From: a virus
Direction: 5' to 3' (one strand)
Virus record (IMG/VR): IMGVR_UViG_3300033150_001333
Coordinates: 1-57,375 of that record
Length of the DNA: 57,375 nucleotides
Part shown: positions 6,709-44,555 of the stretch, piece after piece
How the letters are laid out: each line of letters begins with the position of its first letter
How positions within the stretch are numbered: position 1 is the first letter of the stretch
Position numbers and translations under genes: made by a program
Notes under the pieces: generated by a model
The model's input: only the letters and a program-made list of their open reading frames with translations
Told to the model about the DNA's origin: nothing
Databases searched by the model: none

Positions 6709-6911
6709 TATTTACTCCTTTCATTATAAATTGAATATATTGTTTCAGGTGGGGTTGCAGTTGAATTTTGGCGTCCCATTAATGGACGAATAAGAATTTC
6801 AAACAAAGGAGCAAGCAGGGGCATTTCCTTTTTTAATTCTATCCATGCAGTGCTCTGTAAATTTCCTGAAGAAGATATTAGTTTTGCTATCTCTCTTTTA
6901 ATTTCTTTCAT
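6708..6911 (-). CDS. Hypothetical small protein
   Basis: A 67-residue protein starting 14 bases inside the end of the replication initiator gene, which suggests coupling to it. It has a helical N-terminus (IKREIAKLISS), a second helix (IELKKEMPLLAPLFEILIR) and a Thr/Pro-rich tail. It could be an accessory of the initiator, but only position supports this. Confidence 0.5.
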   Translation of the reverse strand: MKEIKREIAKLISSSGNLQSTAWIELKKEMPLLAPLFEILIRPLMGRQNSTATPPETIYSIYNERSK

Positions 6912-8166
6912 AATTGTCTCCTTTGCTTAAACTTAAATAAGCCCTTCGGAGAAGCTTTAAATCTTGGATATATTCTGGGCAGTAGTTGTTGTTTTTTAAG
7001 GCTTCATTGTAACTAGCTTCGTTTGTAATATCTTTATAAACCTCGTGATGAAGCCATCTTAAAGCAGCTTCAAAAGCTATTTTGTAATCCATTTTGTCTC
7101 TTTCTTCTTCAGTAGTCGTCCAGACTTTTTCAGGTTTGGGATATTGAACGCCTGGCTTATCCTCCCACCGCCGTTGAGCAAGGAATGTGCTGGGATATAT
7201 AATATATTCTAGTTCCATATTAGGCCATTCATACTTTATGTAATTATCTAAGCCTTCCATTATTTGGTTAAATAAAGCTTCATCAGGATTTATTTTTAAC
7301 CACTCTGCTAAAGCTCCTACTTTGTTTACTTTTCTGGGATAGTTTAGCCAAAACTTCTCAAATAGAATTCGTTGCTTTTTAATATTTTGTAGTAGTAAAT
7401 TATCTGGTGGTTTATAGGGCGGAAAAGGTTGTTGTTTTTCTTTTCCACTGATGAATTCACTTTTCTTATTTGAATCTTTAGAGCTATATAGATTATTATT
7501 TATATATTTTTTATTATTTTCTTTAAAAGAGTTATTTAAAGAAGATTTTATATCTGTAGTATTCTTTGTAGTATTCTTTGTATTTGTCCTAACTTCAGGA
7601 GAAGGAGGTGGTAACTTTGAAGTAGGGGGGTGGTTACTTTGAAGTAAAGAGGTATTTACTTCGGAATTAGGAGGTGGTGATTCTGAAGTAGGAAGGTGGT
7701 TATCTTGAGGTAAAGAGGGGGTTTTTTTAGATTTGCGTTGGTCGTATGTAATTTTAAGGACATTGTCAATAATTGGTTCTATAAACATGACATTTGAAAG
7801 TTTTAAACCTTCGTTAGTTTCTATTGTTTTAAATTCTCTTTTAACAAGTTTTAATCTTATCAAATCATCAAAAGCTCTTTTAACCTGTATTTTTGTGAAA
7901 CCAAATAAATCCACATAAGACTGGTAATTCTTTTGTAATCTATCAGCTTTAAACTTTTGTCTATAACCAATTACTTCGCCTGTTTCTGGATTTCTTTCTT
8001 CAACTGGCCTATACCAAAAAACAATGTCCGCCAATAATGTTATAGCTACATGATTCACTGTTCCGTTTTGAGTTTTTATATATCTATACCAACTTAAGGG
8101 GACAGTATTACCAGAAAATTCAACGCCAATTAGTTTTTTACATTGTTCATTTATTTCATTTCTCAT
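6898..8166 (-). CDS. Phage replication initiator (lambda-O-like helix-turn-helix protein)
   Basis: The 422-residue protein has the layout of phage replication initiators. Residues 1-130 form a winged-helix domain (residues 30-60 AITLLADIVFWYRP, then FTKIQVKRAFDDLIRLKLVKRE as wing and recognition helix). A low-complexity Pro/Ser/Asn linker follows (about 145-265), and a C-terminal module contains FEKFWLNYPRKVNKVGALAE, typical of the region that contacts the helicase loader. The linker contains two copies of a 22-residue repeat, created by six 22-bp DNA repeats at 7,585-7,716 that look like iterons, as in lambda O where the origin lies within the initiator gene. The start has GGAGGAG at good spacing and overlaps the tail of the HNH frame. 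A role in origin recognition is strongly suggested. Confidence 0.8.
   Translation of the reverse strand: MRNEINEQCKKLIGVEFSGNTVPLSWYRYIKTQNGTVNHVAITLLADIVFWYRPVEERNPETGEVIGYRQKFKADRLQKNYQSYVDLFGFTKIQVKRAFDDLIRLKLVKREFKTIETNEGLKLSNVMFIEPIIDNVLKITYDQRKSKKTPSLPQDNHLPTSESPPPNSEVNTSLLQSNHPPTSKLPPPSPEVRTNTKNTTKNTTDIKSSLNNSFKENNKKYINNNLYSSKDSNKKSEFISGKEKQQPFPPYKPPDNLLLQNIKKQRILFEKFWLNYPRKVNKVGALAEWLKINPDEALFNQIMEGLDNYIKYEWPNMELEYIIYPSTFLAQRRWEDKPGVQYPKPEKVWTTTEEERDKMDYKIAFEAALRWLHHEVYKDITNEASYNEALKNNNYCPEYIQDLKLLRRAYLSLSKGDNYERN
7585..7716. repeat. Six tandem 22-bp iteron-like repeats inside the initiator gene (candidate replication origin)
   Basis: Six direct repeats follow each other with an exact 22-bp period: 7585-7606, 7607-7628, 7629-7650, 7651-7672, 7673-7694 and 7695-7716. 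Most begin GGTGGT, and the best copy (7629-7650) contains the perfect dyad TTACTTTGAAGTAA. Others keep ACTTTGAAGTA, TTACTTCGGAATTA or TTATCTTGAGGTAA. The first copy is the most diverged. The repeats lie in the linker of the initiator gene, and because 66 bp is 22 codons they generate a repeated peptide. The position and the period match iteron origins bound by the protein encoded around them. Confidence 0.7.
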
Positions 8167-9005: not shown

Positions 9006-10253
9006 TTAAAATAATTCTTCTAATTCTTTTGCTTTGGTGTCAATCATCAAGTAGATTTCTGTAGCTTCCGCCTCATCCGAAATATCATAAATACTATTAT
9101 AACCCTTTTCTTTCAAAACCTCATTCACTAGTTCACGGTCATAATTTGACAATTGCTCTTCTAATTCCACAAGCCATTGTGCGGGAGGTTGAGCTTTCTT
9201 TTCTGGTTTAGCCTTTTTAGGTTTTGGAGGAGAAGTAGCAGGCTTATTCTTTGCTTCCCATTCCTTAAATTTTTCTACAAACCTATCTATTTTCTTTGTA
9301 GCTTTTTCTTTTACATATTCCATCGAGCAATTAACACTCTTTGCTACTGTTTCAATGTATTCTTCTACTCTTTCTTTATCTAATTTTTTTTTAGCAATCA
9401 CATCATCAAAAAATATTATTCGTTCAGGTTCAGGAGCTTGGTCTTCAATTTGTTTGGGTTTGTCGTCCTTTTTTTCTTTTCCAGCCTCCATATCCTTTAT
9501 ATCAATCACTTTACCTTGGAAAGTTACTTCTTCCTTTTTAGGTTCTTCTTCAATTGTAGACAATACAATGTCCTCTTCTTCCTCAGAAATTGCTATATCT
9601 AATTCAGGTGTTTTGCGTTTCATTTTAAGCATTTTCAAAACTGCACTCTTTCTCATCATAGCTTCAGGCCATAAATGCCAAGGACTATCTTTAGTTCCAG
9701 CTTGTTCAGCCTTTCTCCATGAAAGAGACATTTTTCTTCTTTTTTCAATTTCTTCCATTCTGATTATATCGAAATCCACTCTATCATCCTTTTTCCAAAG
9801 AGCGTAAGCACAAACAGCTTTCCCTCTGTCTTTTAATGCAATTTTATGGTGCAAATAAGCATCAGTGCCCAATTGATAATTAAACTCATCATTCTCATAA
9901 ACTACATGGGCTTCCACTTCAGCATCTGTTACTCTGTTTACCAACTCAATAAGACCTTGATAACCAATTTGGGCATTGCATTCTATTGGATGTCCTTGTT
10001 TTCTATTATTACGCCTAGGTATCAAATAAACATTATCTCCGCCTGGTAGTAATCCCCACTCTGCACATTTCAATAATGCACTGAGCAAACTTTCAGGAGT
10101 GCATTGTTGCAATTGAGGGTTTTTGAAAAGAGCGTTCCAAAAGGCTGCAATCAGGACATCTTTCTTCATTCCTTTAGGTAGCACTTTTAACTTCTCACTT
10201 GTTTCAGGAGAAACTAATTTGGCCTTGATTTCTGCTAGTTGATTTTTTTTCAT
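9006..10253 (-). CDS. recT: RecT-family single-strand annealing protein
   Basis: Residues 1-240 match RecT: an N-terminal helical part, LLSALLKCAEWGLLPG, the NAQIGYQGLIEL motif, IRMEEIEKRRKMS and the PEAMMRKSAVLKMLK segment. RecT anneals complementary single strands and promotes recombination together with a 5'-3' exonuclease, encoded here at 11,672-12,196. The protein is 415 residues against about 270 for typical RecT. The extra part is an acidic and Lys/Pro-rich linker (about 240-355) plus a folded-looking C-terminus (WLVELEEQLSNYDREL..., about 356-415). This tail may recruit the host SSB or another partner. It starts three bases from the stop of the downstream-numbered membrane gene. Confidence 0.93.
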   Translation of the reverse strand: MKKNQLAEIKAKLVSPETSEKLKVLPKGMKKDVLIAAFWNALFKNPQLQQCTPESLLSALLKCAEWGLLPGGDNVYLIPRRNNRKQGHPIECNAQIGYQGLIELVNRVTDAEVEAHVVYENDEFNYQLGTDAYLHHKIALKDRGKAVCAYALWKKDDRVDFDIIRMEEIEKRRKMSLSWRKAEQAGTKDSPWHLWPEAMMRKSAVLKMLKMKRKTPELDIAISEEEEDIVLSTIEEEPKKEEVTFQGKVIDIKDMEAGKEKKDDKPKQIEDQAPEPERIIFFDDVIAKKKLDKERVEEYIETVAKSVNCSMEYVKEKATKKIDRFVEKFKEWEAKNKPATSPPKPKKAKPEKKAQPPAQWLVELEEQLSNYDRELVNEVLKEKGYNSIYDISDEAEATEIYLMIDTKAKELEELF

Positions 10254-14022: not shown

Positions 14023-14643
14023 CTAGCCTCCTTTTTCATCTAAGCAAACTAATAAACCTTTCATTTTTTGCTCCGTTATAGTGTTAACGACTTCAAACTT
14101 AATAAATTTGTTATATTCATCTTGATAAATAGAAATAGTAACGGGTTTATTTTTCTCATCATTAAATTTTTCAACTTGAGTGGCTATTTCTTTTAAGAGC
14201 TTTGCATTTACAGTTAGTGTTATAATTGGATTTTCTTTAGGATATGCTTTATCTGTATCAGGATATGAAATATCTTTGTTTTTTATGGACATTGTAAAGA
14301 CATTATCTAAATCTGTTGTTACCAAGATTGTCTTATCTTCTTTTTGAGATACCATGACATTTTCAAGAATAGGAAGAGGGCTTTTAGGGATTAACTTTCG
14401 AATTTTTGTTACTTCATTTTTGCTAAGATAGAAATCTCGCTCTTGTTTATATTCAAGCCCAGTTTCAGGATATTCCTCATAAGGTAAATTTGGCCTTGTT
14501 ACTTCTATTAATAAATACCTATCAGTAACAACTGTTTTTTCTTTAGTCACTTTAATAACTTGTGAAATATCAAAGTCATCTGAACTGTAATCACTTTCCT
14601 TTTCAAGTAAATTTGCTATTTGAAGATTGTATTTATTTAGCAT
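14023..14643 (-). CDS. Possible divergent sliding-clamp-like protein
   Basis: The 206-residue protein has features of beta-clamp (DnaN) half-domains: KSPLPILENVMVS near residues 87-99, a strand-rich middle with VTTDLDNVFTMSI, then TLTVNAKLLKEIATQVEKF, which resembles the NPKYLLEVLKAL-type clamp helix, and KPVTISIYQDEYNKFIKFEV. It is shorter than a bacterial clamp (about 370 residues), so it may cover two of three domains or be a phage clamp variant. No DNA polymerase was found in the window, so it might act with host polymerase III. The family call is tentative. Confidence 0.45.
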   Translation of the reverse strand: MLNKYNLQIANLLEKESDYSSDDFDISQVIKVTKEKTVVTDRYLLIEVTRPNLPYEEYPETGLEYKQERDFYLSKNEVTKIRKLIPKSPLPILENVMVSQKEDKTILVTTDLDNVFTMSIKNKDISYPDTDKAYPKENPIITLTVNAKLLKEIATQVEKFNDEKNKPVTISIYQDEYNKFIKFEVVNTITEQKMKGLLVCLDEKGG

Positions 14644-14667: not shown

Positions 14668-15189
14668 TTATAAATAAAATTCTTTTCCCAAAACATACTG
14701 CAATGCTTCAGCAATATGGGTTGTCTTGATATTATCTTCTTTGTCTATTTCGCTAATAGTTTTAGCAACTCTTAAAGTTGTCTCTAATTCAGAAGGAAGC
14801 ATCCCTTTGGTTTTATATGCAGTTTCCAGAAGATTTAACCCTTCTTTATCTATTTTGCTTTTATCAAATTCAAGATACTCAAAGTTAAAGCAGTTAATTG
14901 CTGTAAAAGTCATATCCGTTTGAGGAAGATTTATTTGATACTTTTTAATTTCTTCTGGCGTGCATTTACATATTCTATTTGTGGAATTGAAGTTACCGCA
15001 AGGGCAAGGTTTTTTGACATAAATGATTTCTTCCAAAAGGTATCTTTGTTCTTCAGGAATGGTCTTTTTTAATCCGAATACTACTTGTTGAATGAAATAT
15101 ACATCACTCGTAATAATCAATAATGAATGTTTGCCATTTAAAGCAACATCTAAAACTCTTAAAAAATGTGGTGAATTAAATTTAATCAT
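14668..15189 (-). CDS. Shrunken ComM/Mg-chelatase-like AAA protein lacking a P-loop
   Basis: The 173-residue protein resembles bacterial ComM (YifB; Mg-chelatase ChlI-like AAA+), but is about a third of its length (about 500). FLRVLDVALNGKHSLLIITS (9-28) matches the region just before Walker A, where ComM has GHNLLL and GPPGSGKT, but here the P-loop is gone. PCPCGNFNS...CKCTPEEIKKYQ (61-85) matches the CxC...CxC insert of ComM (Cys62, 64, 74, 76). LRVAKTISEIDKEDNIKT and HIAEALQYV near the end match the C-terminal lid. ComM is a hexameric branch-migration helicase, so this protein could be a zinc-binding partner or an inhibitor of the host hexamer. Confidence 0.65.
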   Translation of the reverse strand: MIKFNSPHFLRVLDVALNGKHSLLIITSDVYFIQQVVFGLKKTIPEEQRYLLEEIIYVKKPCPCGNFNSTNRICKCTPEEIKKYQINLPQTDMTFTAINCFNFEYLEFDKSKIDKEGLNLLETAYKTKGMLPSELETTLRVAKTISEIDKEDNIKTTHIAEALQYVLGKEFYL

Positions 15190-43026: not shown

Positions 43027-44555
43027 TGGCAACTGAAGTAGTAAAAGTGATTGACCCAGACAATGGCACGGGAGCGGATTATACCTCTCTTTCTGCTTGG
43101 GAAGCAGGAGAGGAGAAAGATTTACAACAGGCAGATGAGATAGCTGTTGCCAAGTGCCGATGCACAGGTGGAAGTGCAGATACTGATGCTGTGGTTATTG
43201 ATGGTAGTTGGAATCCAGATGCTACTCGTTACATTAAAATCTGGACTGACCCAAGTGAAGGATATAGGCATGATGGGAAATGGAATGACAGTAAATACAG
43301 GTTAGTTAATAATGCTGATTCTTATGCACTTGATGTTAATGAGCCTTATACGAAAATTGAGGGACTTCAAATCAGACAAACAGGGCCTGGTGATTACAAT
43401 CACGCTTTGGATGTTAGGAATGCTTCTTATTTTGAAGTTTCATATACTATCGTTCGTGGATGCAACGGAAATAATGCAAAGGGGATTTATGGAAGTGTAT
43501 CTGAAGGTCCTGTAAAACTTTGGAATAACATTGTTTATGATTTTAATAGCTCAGATGGAATAGTATTAAGTATATCCACGGCAGGACAAAAAGCTTATGT
43601 TTATAACAACACAGTTTATAATTGCAATATAGGTATTTATTCAGGAGGATACCAAGATATTGTAGCTAAAAATAACCTCGTTCAAGACTGCACTGATGGA
43701 TATGAAGGTGATTTTGACTCTGATTCTGATTACAACATCTCAGACATCTCTGGCGACGCACCAGGTGCAAATAGTAAGACCTGCACAGTTTCCTTTGTTG
43801 ATGAAGCTAATGATGATTTCCATCTTGCATCCAGTGATACTTGTACACGGAGCGGGACTTGGGATATTGGAGCGGATGAGTATGTAGTGGCTGGAGGCTT
43901 AATCAAAATAATGGATGAGACTGTTTCAATATCAGAGACTTTAATAAGAAGACTTTATGCAAATCGTTTTATCGGAGAGACAGTTGCAATTACTGAAACT
44001 ATGCCAAGGAGAGGATATTCAAATCGTTTAATAAACGAGACAATTACTATATCTGAAGGAATATTAAGAAGGTTAAGGTCAAATAGGATTATAAACGAGA
44101 CAATATCAATTGCTGAGGCAATATCTCGTAGAGCATTCTCAAGTAGAGTTATAAATGAAACATTAAGCATAGCTGAAGCAGTGCTTAAGCGATTAAGGGC
44201 TGTAAGGATTATCAGTGAGACTGTATCTGTATCTGAAAGCTTAGTAAGAAGATTACGGTCGATAAGGATAATTAGTGAGACAATTGGTATAACAGAGAAC
44301 TTTGTCCGTTCATGTGTTGCTACATTAGTAAAAATAATGAATGAAGTCATATCAATTACAGAAAATTTAGTTAAAATTAAAACTTTTATTGAAACAGTAA
44401 GTGAAGTAACAATAGGTAAAATAATTTTTCATGCTCATCGTGCATCTATAGGGTTTAAAAATTTTTATTCATCTATAGAATTTAAGAAGTTTTGTTCGTC
44501 TATAAGTTTTAAAAAGTTTATGGCTAAAATAAGCTTTAAAAGAAAAGGAGATTAA
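43026..44555 (+). CDS. Beta-helix spike-like protein with C-terminal repeats
   Basis: The 509-residue protein has a short N-terminal domain (VIDPDNGTGADYTSLSAWEA, residues 8-27), a right-handed beta-helix (about 110-275; IVRGCNGNNAKGIYGS, VYNNTVYNCNIGIYSG, VAKNNLVQDCTDGYEG) ending in DIGADEY, a typical end of secreted beta-helix proteins. Two repeat regions follow: eight 20-residue units of the form IINETISIAEAISRRLRSNR (about 293-453) and four 9-residue units of the form SSIEFKKFC (about 473-505). The repeats may trimerise or link to another virion part. It could be a second spike for a different receptor. Confidence 0.75.
   Translation: MATEVVKVIDPDNGTGADYTSLSAWEAGEEKDLQQADEIAVAKCRCTGGSADTDAVVIDGSWNPDATRYIKIWTDPSEGYRHDGKWNDSKYRLVNNADSYALDVNEPYTKIEGLQIRQTGPGDYNHALDVRNASYFEVSYTIVRGCNGNNAKGIYGSVSEGPVKLWNNIVYDFNSSDGIVLSISTAGQKAYVYNNTVYNCNIGIYSGGYQDIVAKNNLVQDCTDGYEGDFDSDSDYNISDISGDAPGANSKTCTVSFVDEANDDFHLASSDTCTRSGTWDIGADEYVVAGGLIKIMDETVSISETLIRRLYANRFIGETVAITETMPRRGYSNRLINETITISEGILRRLRSNRIINETISIAEAISRRAFSSRVINETLSIAEAVLKRLRAVRIISETVSVSESLVRRLRSIRIISETIGITENFVRSCVATLVKIMNEVISITENLVKIKTFIETVSEVTIGKIIFHAHRASIGFKNFYSSIEFKKFCSSISFKKFMAKISFKRKGD
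43900..44385 (+). repeat. Eight tandem 60-bp coding repeats
   Basis: The C-terminal part of the beta-helix gene is made of units of 20 codons whose pattern is (I/V)INET(I/V)SI(A/S)E..(I/L)RRLR.NR. Eight units can be counted, the last two diverged. The DNA copies differ from each other (codon-level divergence), so the array is old or under selection at protein level. Confidence 0.7.
44442..44540 (+). repeat. Four tandem 27-bp coding repeats
   Basis: The last part of the same gene encodes four 9-residue units: SIGFKNFYS, SIEFKKFCS, SISFKKFMA and KISFKRKG. They alternate beta-forming and basic residues, and the final unit ends the protein. Confidence 0.65.

Follow-up and report, generated by a model that had tools for sequence, protein, structure and literature searches.

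The part of a phage replication initiator gene that codes for the linker between its two domains is very probably the replication origin of the phage, a lambda-type origin comprising iterons, a strand-opening element, and a hairpin. The gene lies in a stretch of viral DNA of 57,375 nucleotides, here called the window. Iteron origins located inside genes are already known, as in lambda. What appears to be unrecorded in the literature searched is an opening zone that consists of a sharply conserved 12-mer, found across a large number of widely diverged initiator genes of phages. In the non-subscription literature, which leaves aside older reviews on the replication modules of phages, a text search found no paper printing this 12-mer. 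As a DNA signature, the 12-mer allows origins to be located in uncultivated phages; it also predicts the place of strand opening, and it points to a common strand-capture or helicase-loading step that is testable by synonymous mutations.

The Initiator Gene and Its Neighborhood

The initiator gene (6898..8166, minus strand) codes for 422 amino acids, arranged as a winged-helix N-domain, a linker, and a C-domain. In a profile search, its product matches phrog_270, replication initiation (E=1e-23), and more weakly the "O-like" phrog_391 (residues 68-206, E=1e-5); phrog_9474 is also among its phrog matches, and a Pfam search gave no match. The N-domain, encoded at 7731..8166 (minus strand), is modeled with confidence as a winged helix (pLDDT 90.6) and is the presumed iteron binder. 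No PDB relatives of the initiator are found by sequence, and by fold there are weak winged-helix matches only, those of the N-domain being to the N-domain of DnaD (2v79) and to the plasmid initiators 4pql, 4pt7, and 5kbj. The last residues of the initiator, about 60 in number (6898-7100), form a separate ORF (MDYKIAFE...) in the relatives L003 and L005, and in the 3' part of the window gene two genes appear to be fused.

Two genes upstream of the initiator, a RecT-type annealing protein is encoded (9006-10253, minus strand). The same strand codes for a short DNA polymerase III β-clamp-like protein (14023-14643), which matches the processivity factor phrog_947 and weakly a Pfam family, and for another short protein, containing the C-terminal portion of the magnesium chelatase subunit ChlI (14668-15189), which is unusual for a phage early region. 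GC skew, which the sequence-only reading had proposed as a check for the origin, follows gene orientation in the window and does not locate one.

Iterons in the Linker

Six adjacent 22-bp repeats with an exact period had been claimed for the linker of the initiator, and such an array is present between the regions coding for the N- and C-domains. It occupies about 7582..7713 on the coding (minus) strand, with units starting at 7713, 7691, 7669, 7647, 7625, and 7603. Compared with the 14-bp dyad TTACTTCAAAGTAA, these units match, in order, at 11, 10, 10, 14, 12, and 7 of 14 positions. The array is made up of five good dyad copies and one half-site, the sixth unit (7/14), which runs into the 12-mer element. 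The perfect dyad described for the best copy, TTACTTTGAAGTAA, is found in unit 4 at 7634-7647.

The lag-22 identity of the array is 0.627, compared with 0.387±0.042 in 5000 synonymous recodings that retain the peptide and draw codons from the gene's own use, none of which was as high. It is unequalled by any other 132-bp stretch in the window, and a stricter 12-mer site-count test on the array gave p=0.026. The dyad motif by itself is not rare in the window (26 occurrences found at 3 mismatches versus 34 expected), so it is the register, and not the motif alone, that makes the array. A 27-bp tandem repeat at 44443-44519, in the last part of a 509-aa ORF, is a coding repeat of 9 codons and not an iteron array.

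The duplicated 22-residue linker noticed in the sequence-only reading exists as well (SLPQDNHLPTSESPPPNSEV / SLLQSNHPPTSKLPPPSPEV). Since 22 is not a multiple of 3, the protein reads the DNA repeat in three frames (TSK, SEV/PEV, and LLQS), and its own repeat takes 22 residues to recur; repetition of a peptide cannot by itself give rise to a DNA period of 22 bp. Relatives whose N-domains are 94-97% identical to that of the window (L001, L003, and L004) keep the array. In close relatives, the linker has 1 synonymous-variable and 9 nonsynonymous-variable codons, compared with 15 and 13, respectively, in the N-domain (Fisher p=0.025). Judged by these codons, the linker DNA is held more strictly than its peptide, in agreement with the proposed conservation of the repeat DNA over the peptide. 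Relatives that keep the peptide and lose the DNA repeats had been named as a refuting case; the outcome is the opposite, and 80 distant genes keep the period of 22 or 23 bp.

A Conserved 12-mer Element Adjoins the Iterons

Immediately next to the iterons, at 7587-7555 on the minus strand, stands ACAAATACAAAGAATACTACAAAGAATACTACA. This sequence belongs to an element at 7546..7587 (minus strand; ACAAATACAAAGAATACTACAAAGAATACTACAGATATAAAA), in which the lead-in ACAAAT precedes two complete 12-mers and part of a third. The consensus of the 12-bp-repeat element is RAGANTACTACA, and the window contains at least two such units phased to the iterons, the feature by which element carriers are defined. 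An exact pattern match lies at 7555-7581, with a chance expectation of 0 in the window, and the PWM score of the element, 43.5, is by far the best in the window. Both the element and the hairpin beyond it had been missed by the sequence-only reading, and the element is more conserved than the iterons.

Relatives were gathered from viral and genome collections by similarity of the N-domain protein sequence, yielding 154 distinct genes. Nearly all of them share the DNA ACAAATACAGAGATTACTACAGAGATTACTACA at the element site irrespective of host, with Bacillus, Lachnospiraceae, Yersinia, Acinetobacter, Desulfosarcina, Herpetosiphon, and a contig binned as Candidatus Syntrophoarchaeum represented. 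The element is common to initiator genes of Bacillota, Pseudomonadota, Chloroflexota, cyanobacterial phages, and others. The closest relative outside the viral collection, with 62% N-domain identity, is encoded on the Candidatus Syntrophoarchaeum contig (L103, 2501-2911), which may reflect a binning error or an archaeal virus.

Among 55 representatives, the third base of element codon 3 is A in 53, that of codon 4 is G in 47, and that of codon 6 is T in 41, whereas 20.8, 22.5, and 15.6, respectively, are expected from their own codon use. First and second bases of element codons vary, resulting in the residues E/K and I/N/T/S. The GC3 of the element does not track that of the gene (Spearman 0.14, p=0.42), and 11 genes possess an extra copy of the element in another frame, encoding RDY, KDY, or QRL. 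Fixed wobble bases, variable residues, and out-of-frame copies together indicate that the constraint acts on the nucleic acid. One might suppose that what matters is the peptide TNTEITTEITT, as a flexible linker or contact site, with the DNA repeats as a by-product, and among the matches listed the 27-bp pattern in genes is indeed always in one frame. We give this explanation hardly any credence, as the wobble bases are more fixed than the residues, copies in other frames encode RDY/KDY, the 22/23-bp period does not correspond to whole codons, and the element also occurs in non-coding DNA of plasmids and of a prophage contig. As a separate candidate role for the element, primase trinucleotide sites were rejected, because CTG disappears wherever GAG turns into AAG.

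Distribution of the Element Among Phages and Bacterial Genomes

In an unbiased scan of viral contigs, the bare DNA pattern ACARAGANTACTACARAGANTACTACA was found at no fewer than 134 sites, distributed over at least 119 loci, and among the matches listed 133 of 134 sites fall inside an ORF that runs on the strand of the pattern, always in one frame. The N-domains of the pattern-carrying proteins (at least 119 loci) join into one very diverged winged-helix group. An alignment of 40 sampled proteins has a mean identity of 14%, and 36 of these 40 match "replication initiation O-like". In annotated phages, the genes that contain the element are for the most part labeled replication protein O, primosomal protein I, DnaD-like, or hypothetical. 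Of 5426 complete E. coli genomes, 2363 (44%; E<=0.1) have it in prophages; in the sample inspected, the features carrying it are chiefly replication proteins of phages or else hypothetical proteins, and in one of these E. coli genes the C-domain resembles lambda O by eye. The Rac gene ydaU of E. coli, examined for the element, lacks it. Going by the genes in which it occurs, the 12-mer element is a marker of initiator genes.

Two further observations concern single genomes. In L186 (2-907, minus strand), the initiator linker between the winged-helix domain and the 12-mer element appears to hold an inserted HNH domain. In the Felix-O1-like phage bumzen (L306, 1500-1535), a near-element 12-bp repeat, ACACAGATTACT, lies inside a gene annotated as a membrane protein; it may be an origin or a coincidence.

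The C-domains of the pattern-carrying proteins fall into about 20 unrelated clusters, which among the matches listed all follow one common element, and this element sits at the module boundary. Both features would suit a recombination joint at which N- and C-modules of initiators are swapped and which repeated exchange keeps uniform; the iterons would then be the origin and the element would not. Such a joint seems unlikely to us, since the N-domains, at the 14% mean identity of the sampled proteins, are too diverged for recent exchange, and since exchange alone leaves the iteron phase, the downstream hairpins, and the non-coding copies with iterons unexplained. L005 to L008 have only the C-domain in common with the window initiator. 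L005 and L007, natural swaps that combine the same C-domain with another N-domain, are without the 12-mer element, and in L008 the element is degraded. Its absence from L005 and L007 indicates that the unit of iterons and element travels with the N-domain and not with the C-domain.

Phasing of Iterons, Element, and Hairpin

In 80 non-redundant genes, the autocorrelation of the 126 bp before the element, compared with synonymous recoding, peaks at lags 22 (z=19), 23 (z=23), and 44-46, and a control region is flat. As a period of 22/23 bp is not a multiple of the codon length, the peptide is not its cause. In the same 80 genes, counting from the first ACA-RAG, mean dyad symmetry is highest at positions that include -15.5, -37.5, -59.5, and -81.5, and these set distances imply that differing iteron sequences stand in fixed phase to one common element. 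In the site-count test, 15 of 22 representatives of the C-clusters reach p<=0.05, typically with 23-bp spacing. Iteron sequence co-varies weakly with the sequence of the N-domain (partial r=0.12, p=0.02).

An inverted repeat capable of forming a hairpin adjoins the downstream end of the element at 7516..7546, with 12-nt arms (7516-7527 and 7535-7546; 92%) and a 7-nt loop. Across the family, 16 of 79 genes have such a repeat behind the element at p<=0.05, compared with 3 of 76 in a control region. By direct reading, the tract downstream of the element (7487..7546) is A+T-rich, as is the whole of 7487-7587, which includes the element; family-wide, A+T after the element is raised only slightly (0.61 versus 0.57).

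Copies Outside Initiator Genes

Plasmid pBSG3 and five B. velezensis plasmids share 136 identical bp in unannotated DNA (735-870 of L303 in the pBSG3 copy). This unit contains three iterons at 22-23-bp spacing and three 12-mers and is without an initiator N- or C-domain. Over iterons plus element, it is 82% identical to the initiator gene of phage PM1; the exact plasmid iteron pair was searched for in viral contigs and not found. A prophage contig (L218, 3966-4046) has an intergenic copy of the element, flanked by structural-type genes on both sides; two 22-bp repeats stand before it, with a lag-22 identity of 0.63 in 60 bp that none of 5000 shuffles reached. No helper initiator was found within the 29.8-kb L218 record, which is a fragment. 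As the non-coding copies in the plasmids and in L218 show, iterons and element travel together as a single portable piece of DNA. The plasmid may make use of a helper phage, a possible route of amplification; its unit could also be a relic.

Plasmid initiators can repress their own genes via iterons. Repeats and element might thus be regulatory, as an autoregulatory operator or an mRNA element, and not an origin. We regard this as quite improbable, since they lie deep inside the gene and away from the promoter, and since further copies of the unit stand in plasmid and intergenic DNA that is distant from the initiator gene; the precedent of lambda also argues against it.

A Model for the Origin and Comparison With Known Systems

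At the proposed origin, the N-terminal winged-helix domain would bind the 22-bp dyad iterons, in line with the sequence-only reading, in which the protein was supposed to bind its own coding sequence, and the resulting nucleoprotein complex would strain the adjoining DNA, which would open at the 12-mer element. There one strand would be captured and the replicative helicase loaded, and the downstream hairpin and A+T-rich tract would complete the origin. Intrinsic melting needs no fixed sequence, whereas the 12-mer is strictly conserved, and for this reason it is likely that the initiator, a loader, or some protein of the host recognizes it as a single strand.

In lambda, O dimers bind iterons within gene O, and the adjoining 40-bp A+T-rich zone opens (PMC5043065; PMC3349717). 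Beyond that zone, our analysis found a 12-nt inverted repeat, with arms at 1163-1174 and 1179-1190 of L302. The window shares with ori-lambda regular dyad iterons inside the initiator gene, between the DNA-binding N-domain and the helicase-recruiting C-domain (roles presumed for the window), an A+T-rich zone of about 40 bp that opens in lambda and would open in the window, and a 12-nt inverted repeat beyond it, in the same order and at about equal distances. The two differ in the N-domain, which is another one in lambda, and in the 22/23-bp spacing of the window family. The A+T-rich zone of lambda lacks the canonical 12-mer, the best match in gene O not being significant (score 8.0; shuffles 0.8±3.7, maximum 14). 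In a lambdoid phage, synonymous changes in the iterons abolish replication of an ori plasmid (PMC7466680). Phage P1 likewise has an in-gene origin, oriL inside repL. Replication from it is blocked when an A/T-rich stretch is changed synonymously, and a copy that is non-coding functions in trans (PMC9948254); in repL, neither the 12-mer nor a 22/23-bp array was found. The initiator of Bacillus phage PM1 has N-domain family, iterons, and element in common with that of the window (BFVD E=2e-13), although its iteron sequence and its C-domain are different.

B. subtilis oriC also has initiator boxes beside a short-period repeat, with TAG/TAA on one of its strands and TnnT on the opposite one (PMC10201434). 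Its unwinding region consists of DnaA-boxes, DnaA-trios, and the DnaD recognition element (DRE), with a period of 3 as compared with 12 in the phage element, and the initiator of the window system is phage-encoded, unlike that of oriC. Ungapped similarity between the published DRE and the 12-mer is not significant (p=0.058). Tentatively, the 12-mer may be the phage counterpart of the DnaA-box/DnaA-trio unwinding module, a codon-independent element in initiator genes of phages from many bacterial phyla that is phase-locked to lineage-specific iterons, recognized as ssDNA by a common phage or host factor, and borrowed by plasmids; we hold this as an idea of roughly balanced prospects, leaning slightly to the doubtful side. 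The DnaA-trio/DRE region of B. subtilis provides the best analogy for the 12-mer element.
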